Source: Deltaproteobacteria bacterium
GTDB taxonomy: Bacteria > Desulfobacterota > DSM-4660 > Desulfatiglandales > HGW-15
Assembly: GCA_016930835.1 (NCBI GenBank)
Contig: JAFGGA010000120.1
Span: forward strand, 1 to 32,622
Reading direction: 5' to 3'
Length of the DNA: 32,622 nucleotides
The notes beneath the pieces were generated by a model. That model was not told the DNA's origin. It did no database searches and saw only the letters and a program-made list of their open reading frames with translations. The translations under genes and the position numbers were made by a program. Shown here in pieces: positions 1-13,091 of the stretch. Positions within the stretch are counted from its first letter, which is position 1. Each line of letters begins with the position of its first letter.

Positions 1-139
1 CCTGACTATAAAGCGAAGTTGGAGTGATTTTGACCCGCAGGCATATTACCGATATGGTGAGGATCAAAATCACGAAACAAGCTTTATGGTCAAGGCGCTT
101 CAAGCCGCAGTAGATGATTGGTGCAAGATACAGGTATTA
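1..139 (+). repeat. Truncated copy of a long palindromic (MITE-like) repeat
   Basis: Positions 1-139 align without gaps to the reverse complement of 12743-12881, with 10 mismatches (about 93% identity). The end at 113-139 corresponds to the 25-bp terminal inverted repeat of the complete copy. The other end, about 43 bp, lies outside the window. Internal complementary segments (for example TGATTTT near 24-30 against AAAATCA near 66-72) show that this copy can also fold on itself. Similarity stops just after 139, which fits a discrete mobile or amplified element. An open frame at 2-169 runs through it but is not considered a gene. Confidence 0.8.
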
Positions 140-12689: not shown

Positions 12690-12744
12690 CTTTATCTCCT
12701 GCTTGACGGTAATCGCTGAAATGGCCAGGGCTTCCAATGATTTA

Positions 12745-12924
12745 TTACCTGAATCTTGCACCAATCATCTACTGCGGCTTGAAGCGCCTTGACTATAAGG
12801 CTTGTATCGTGATTTTGATCCTCACCATATAGGTAATATGCCTGCGGGCCAAAATCATTTCAACTTCGCTTTACAGTCAGGCTTTCGGCGCCTCGCTATG
12901 ATGATTGTTGCAAGATTCAGGTAA
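12745..12924. repeat. Complete 180-bp long palindromic (MITE-like) element
   Basis: The ends 12745-12769 and 12900-12924 are 25-bp inverted repeats with one mismatch (TTACCTGAATCTTGCA...). Complementarity continues inwards: GACTATAAGGC against GCTTTACAGTC, and TGATTTTG (12810-12817) against CAAAATCA (12851-12858). Most of the 180 bp can therefore form one long imperfect hairpin. A second copy, inverted relative to this one, lies at the window start (1-139). No target-site duplication is clear, and there is no transposase. This could be a non-autonomous miniature element moved by an enzyme elsewhere, or a REPIN-like repeat. Confidence 0.82.
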
Positions 12925-12980
12925 CAAAATCTAAAACAGCCGTTTCATTTTTGATTTTTAAAAGATTTGGTGCGAACCTA

Positions 12981-13091
12981 TGGATTCCGCGATCAAGTCG
13001 CGGAATGACCTTGCAAAAACCAGGGGTGATCATTTACAGTCGAGTAGCCAAAAACTAGGCTGGTCATTCCGCGACTTGATCGCGGAATCCA
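12981..13091. repeat. Perfect 30-bp inverted REP pair
   Basis: 12981-13010 and 13062-13091 are exact reverse complements over 30 bp, separated by 51 bp. Each arm contains its own palindrome, ATTCCGCGA-tcaag-TCGCGGAAT. This two-level symmetry is the layout of REP doublets (REPINs). No RAYT transposase is in the window. The remaining sequence from 13092 to 13350 shows no gene. Confidence 0.8.

Follow-up and report, generated by a model that had tools for sequence, protein, structure and literature searches.

Results

An imperfect palindrome at the locus

The window, which is the whole 32,622-nucleotide stretch of DNA analysed here, carries a 174-bp element on its plus strand at 12748..12921. 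It begins with CCTGAATC and ends with GATTCAGG, boundaries defined by 19 full copies, and its fold shows an imperfect palindrome that spans its whole length. The left terminal inverted repeat (TIR), CCTGAATCTTGCACCAATCATC, lies at 12748..12769 on the plus strand, and the right TIR, with one mismatch to the left, lies at 12900..12921 on the minus strand. The hairpin has a conserved apex, TGATTTTGATCCTCACCATAT..ATATGCCTGCGGGCCAAAATCA (12810..12857, plus strand), which is better kept in distant relatives than any other part. Copy comparison identified flanking target bases, which have no strand, as TATTA on the left (12743..12747) and TAACA on the right (12922..12926); the 5-bp duplication is thus imperfect here, with two mismatches.

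The first-pass annotation had described a 180-bp palindromic element at 12745-12924. The palindrome was confirmed, as were its 25-bp inverted repeats with one mismatch (12745-12769 and 12900-12924), but the extent was not: end-to-end comparison of the 19 copies showed that the element proper runs from CCTG to CAGG at 12748-12921, the outer 3 bp on each side being target DNA. The predicted hairpin folding also held: a 200-nt stretch reached -82.1 kcal/mol, whereas its shuffled versions averaged -43.0 (0 of 200 were as good; z = -8.8).

A second, inverted copy with 93% identity was found at 1..134 on the minus strand, adjoined by target bases TATTA at 135..139 (no strand). It is fragmentary because the contig starts inside it. 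The annotation had rightly placed an inverted copy here, but its interval of 1-139 comprises 134 bp of element and 5 bp of target. The two arms, 1-143 and 12739-12881, are 92% identical without gaps, and 93% over the element.

Downstream of the element lies a REPIN-like unit (12981-13091), whose 30-bp arms (TGGATTCCGCGATCAAGTCGCGGAATGACC) are perfectly complementary and stand 51 bp apart; it has a weak Rfam match to RyfD below the gathering score. Similar sequence flanks other copies of the element (L005 and L029).

Copy number and genomic setting

The element had been noticed as a pair of copies and a genome-wide search for more had been proposed. That search of the 4.7-Mb draft genome, in 224 contigs, found dozens, and a mere pair is not what the genome holds. 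The 180-bp query scored 40 places at E < 1e-36, and a 21-base TIR pattern gave 73 matches versus 0 for the reversed control. Scored matches together with TIR matches at contig ends amount to about 57 copies, full and contig-cut copies both being counted. Many copies coincide exactly with contig ends, the usual outcome for a repeat that assembly leaves unresolved. The copies are scattered and star-like about a single consensus, from which they diverge by 4.5% on average. The annotation had suggested that recombination between the window pair might invert the 12.6 kb that they flank; dozens of copy pairs equivalent to this one occur elsewhere in the genome.

By a mechanical ORF scan, 17 of the 20 copies with usable flanks overlapped no ORF. 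Two (L001 and L008) overlapped by 16 bp an ORF starting within the TIR, the 16-bp overlap at the window copy being the over-extended start of a GNAT gene, and in one (L004) the overlap, with a 105-aa mechanical ORF, was 44 bp. Neighbouring genes were convergent at some copies and tandem or divergent at others, with no fixed orientation of the element relative to genes among the copies checked in this genome.

Target duplication and empty sites

Both 5-bp flanks were complete at 16 copies; they were identical at 8 and had one mismatch at 6 (together 14 of 16). Exact duplications include TAATA/TAATA, TACAA/TACAA, GAATA/GAATA and TATTA/TATTA. True left-right pairs averaged 0.79 mismatches versus 1.39 for mismatched pairs, where the first figure scores L020 and L021, whose right flanks are truncated, as zero mismatches and L002, truncated on the left, as three. 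The difference is modest because nearly all targets resemble TAATA.

The genome also contains an abundant second palindromic repeat family of ~107-140 bp with ends TTATTAACGGTCTCA and TGAGACAGTTAATAA (54 match rows; loci L178-L207, for example L180, L182 and L195), whose terminal TTAATA receives insertions of both the element and the insertion sequence (IS) described below. At least 7 copies of the element lie within the terminal GTTAATA of this family. Many copies of the second repeat without the element run through intact as GTTAATAA, and insertion converts this sequence to GTTAATA-[element]-TAATAA. These are paralogous empty sites, which the annotation had proposed to look for. The nesting is stronger evidence for a target duplication than the flank statistics.

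A candidate partner of the IS1380 family

A first search for a partner IS, by paired TIRs at the relatives' loci of the element, returned only short elements of ~70 to 370 bp. Among short elements, those at G002 loci L088, L093 and L094 and G009 loci L101 and L102 share CCTGAATYTTGCA ends and have interiors that differ or are deleted (about 70, 90, 185 and 370 bp), which suggests that several non-autonomous families may share one IS1380 clade.

We then searched 118 related genomes with Pfam PF13701, followed by a TIR search. L120 is a 1809-bp IS with a 504-aa transposase and CCTGAATCTTGCACC at both ends. The first 15 bases of the left TIR CCTGAATCTTGCACCAATCATC are identical to both ends of this IS, and the ends of the element match it at 15/15 bases on both sides. 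Among relatives of this IS the ends include CCTGAATTTTGCAC, CCTGGATTTTGCAC and CCTCAATCTTGCAT, and the 1790-bp copy L121/L134 is bordered by TAATA on each side. The L120, L134 and L135 proteins scored above the NCBIfam IS1380 cut-off (NF033539) and also matched PF13701.

The Pfam IS1380 search gave no match in the genome of the window itself, because contig ends interrupt the IS there. Contig C217 carries, at its end, an open transposase N-terminus preceded by TTATTA followed by CCTGAATCTTGCAT; this piece, only 100 aa long, was assigned by its 52% identity to L120. The end of the element matches this IS left end at 13/13 bases. DNA and pattern searches found at least 5 IS left ends (C217, C96, C199, C39 and C61) and at least 6 right ends (C13, C42, C53, C167, C168 and C169), all at contig breaks and mostly at TTATTA/TTAATA-like targets; a multicopy IS has therefore been lost in assembly. 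On C39 the IS, like the element, is inserted in a copy of the second repeat, at its terminal TTAATA. From the ends and the two-ended relatives we infer that the right ends belong to the same IS as the left ends. An intact IS1380 transposase is probably encoded in this genome, judging from the contig-end pieces, no complete copy having been assembled.

Identity between the element and the ISs found is confined to the terminal 13-15 bp and the subterminal sequence differs, so none of these ISs gave rise to the element by simple deletion. In distant relatives of the f4 type the element has ends CCCAGATTTTGCAGTAG, matched by CCCAGAATTTGCAGTAG of L124, an IS1380-type element with ends CCCAGAATTTGCAGTAG and CCCAGATATTGCAGTTG whose protein, with a score of 179.1, falls short of the NCBIfam cut-off (180). 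The ends of the element thus follow the transposase ends.

A 1177-bp IS1380 element with its transposase in two separate pieces was found in genomes of two different families (L136 in G011:C84 and L147 in G041:C62), a likeness judged from matching lengths, identities and end sequences. It may reflect either recent transfer or shared contamination.

Distribution in related bacteria

Relatives of the element were found in families f1, f3 and f4 of the same order and in f39 and f110 of the same phylum, giving at least 5 bacterial families of one phylum. In an even sample of that phylum, 8 of 395 genomes matched. The named records among the matches are metagenome-assembled genomes of Desulfobacteraceae, Desulfatiglandales, Desulfobacterales and one unclassified deltaproteobacterium. 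Plasmids gave no match, nor did viral contigs searched with the exact core pattern only; no transfer vector was therefore seen.

Decay of the hairpin within the genome and its conservation across lineages

Among 19 copies of the genome under study, single changes at paired sites broke pairs 65 times and kept them 35 times, and one compensated pair only was found, in two sister copies. The folding energy (-74.4 kcal/mol) was no better than that of a randomly mutated consensus (-72.6 kcal/mol). The change rate was 3.8% at paired versus 7.2% at unpaired sites. The decay of these copies is mostly neutral.

Across 13 lineage representatives, 94.5% of cells were paired and 19 of 57 pairs had two-sided changes. 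None of 500 shuffles reached 19 and slid structures gave at most 5, a comparison that is not a probability because the sequences share ancestry and the structure was itself derived from their alignment. Helix 1, the terminal helix that holds the TIRs, contains nine of the 19, and covariation is expected there anyway because both ends must match one transposase; the other ten lie inside. In addition, 26 unpaired columns were at least 90% conserved, and columns 23-26, 152-154, 95-97 and 99, which are unpaired, were 92-100% identical. The inner hairpin is unusually well preserved across several bacterial families. We read this as a hairpin that may be kept by selection or by arm-to-arm correction, acting on active source copies only.

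Correction without selection, in which quasi-palindrome template switching in a few active source copies would maintain the palindromy by mutation, is a possible if doubtful explanation. It would account for pairing that is kept between lineages and lost among dead copies. However, such correction should remove imperfections of the palindrome, and several of these are conserved; the conserved mismatches argue for some selection on the hairpin.

It is also conceivable, but rather unlikely, that the element exists mainly as a functional hairpin of RNA or DNA, whose conserved stem and internal loops serve the host or the element itself and for which the transposon ends are just a means of spread. 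The cross-lineage pairing, its two-sided changes and the conserved unpaired columns speak for this, as does a ~50-bp core that persists in G016 elements with a replaced left arm. Against it stand the 65 pair-breaking changes versus one compensated pair and the energies like those of a mutated consensus in the genome under study, and the nine covarying pairs of the TIR-bearing helix. The element also has no Rfam match, terminator, excess of promoter-like sites or fixed gene orientation: Rfam gave no gathering-level match in the window and, with the limit relaxed to E = 1, still none over the element, which leaves it outside the known structured RNA families; no terminator was found in it, and a terminator reading was rejected; and promoter-like sites were not above chance. 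A more specific form, to which we give similarly little credence, is that the interior works as a hairpin, in RNA or in cruciform DNA, and that this hairpin with its conserved internal loops was retained in several bacterial families as the transposon ends changed to suit different IS1380 transposases. If true, it would be a structured module carried by whichever IS1380 is available.

At L067, L075, L083 and L226 (G016) and L228 (G008), the apex of the element is found with a different small palindrome, TAGAGACGGGTTTAAAACCCGTCTCTAC or a diverged version, in place of the left arm, a pattern that recombination of the core into new arms would produce.

Coding capacity

That the palindrome is a protein-coding insert of the kind seen in the Rickettsia palindromic elements is very improbable. 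In other lineages, 9 of 15 full 175-bp copies have a minus strand free of stops over all 58 codons, and the target TTAATA introduces none. But substitutions by codon position were 37/55/54, with no third-position preference, the frame is shifted or stopped in the copies of this genome and in the f4 relatives, and the copies checked were nearly all intergenic. With 17 of 20 copies overlapping no ORF and no coding constraint, the element does not belong to the Rickettsia type, and the annotation's remark that protein-like constraint is absent was borne out by the codon-position and frame analysis.

Discussion

The element is very likely a miniature inverted-repeat transposable element (MITE) moved in trans by an IS1380-type transposase with matching ends. 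It is short (174 bp), dispersed (~57 copies) and transposase-free, with no conserved frame; its TIRs are common to an autonomous element (15/15 bases with L120 and 13/13 with C217); and it has a TAATA-type 5-bp target duplication together with uninserted copies of the second repeat. The partner transposase is of the IS1380 type (L120, L134 and L135, and C217 by identity), and CCTGAATC ends with a 5-bp AT-rich duplication agree with the CC... ends and 4-5-bp duplications of that family. The annotation had left the choice between a MITE, a REPIN relative and an RNA element. The TIRs, target duplications, paralogous empty sites and identified transposase family favour the MITE, ends and a partner of the DDE type and the lack of a REP core speak against a REPIN relative, and the RNA reading is conceivable but rather unlikely, with pairing that decays within the genome and is kept across lineages.

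REPs are associated with tyrosine transposases and carry a GTAG tag (PMC3733652), and we took two REP units with a GTAG tag, a RAYT partner and no target duplication as the marks of a REPIN. The long palindrome, intergenic position and high copy number would fit a REPIN or other RAYT-dependent repeat, but this reading is extremely improbable given the 5-bp target duplications, the DDE-type ends identical to those of an IS1380 element and the absence of a REP unit from the 174 bp; the REPIN-like repeat at 12981-13091 is a different sequence.

For the IS1380-linked MITE, we infer mobilisation in trans by the IS1380 transposase. Full-length IS copies with the same ends would make an IS1380-family DDE transposase, which would recognise CCTGAATCTTGCACC at both ends of the MITE and excise or copy the 174-bp element. 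Insertion would occur at AT-rich TTAATA-like sites with duplication of 5 bp (consensus TAATA), and folding of the palindrome may aid propagation. Copies within one genome would then drift apart as neutral relics of a burst, with the hairpin retained across lineages.

Like the IS1380 ISs (NF033539, PF13701; IS1247, ISEcp1 and ISPme1), the MITE has CC...GG terminal inverted repeats, which match the ends of IS1380 elements in related bacteria, and its 5-bp target duplication is like that of IS1247, an IS1380-family element with IR 16/13 and DR 5 (PMC3281130). Unlike these ISs, it lacks a transposase and shares the terminal 13-15 bp only, its palindromic interior being absent from the ISs found. 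IS1380 transposases are the prokaryotic outgroup of the piggyBac superfamily, which has CC-rich 5' ends and a TTAA target (PMC10813416); piggyBac is eukaryotic and its target has 4 bp, whereas the MITE uses 5-bp TAATA.

Known MITEs share the anatomy of this element (PMC10969869, PMC11578231), among them MITEPye1, which is mobilised by IS1182 (PMC11578231), and the QMITEs of Coxiella, which are bacterial MITEs (PMC5896051). Like these, it is short, gene-free and intergenic, with IS-matching TIRs, direct repeats and a long stem-loop when transcribed. Unlike them, its partner is IS1380 and its family spans several bacterial families; MITEPye1 has 1-3 chromosomal copies versus ~57 here. The Correia elements of Neisseria are long palindromic MITEs of about 150 bp with many copies, and they differ from this MITE in their ends and transposase partner. 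Their borders carry TA-rich 2-5-bp repeats (PMC9330008).

The family is new and the kind of element ordinary, an IS1380-linked MITE. None is described in the accessible parts of the literature searched, which was mostly open-access with ISfinder outside its scope, which falls short of proving novelty.

The MITE reading explains the palindrome, and the many contig ends that coincide with MITE or IS copies account for part of the fragmentation of the assembly. The family ties a MITE to IS1380, the bacterial relatives of piggyBac, an association with no example in the literature searched. Its neutral decay within a genome, set against covariation between lineages, provides a usable case for what keeps MITE hairpins.
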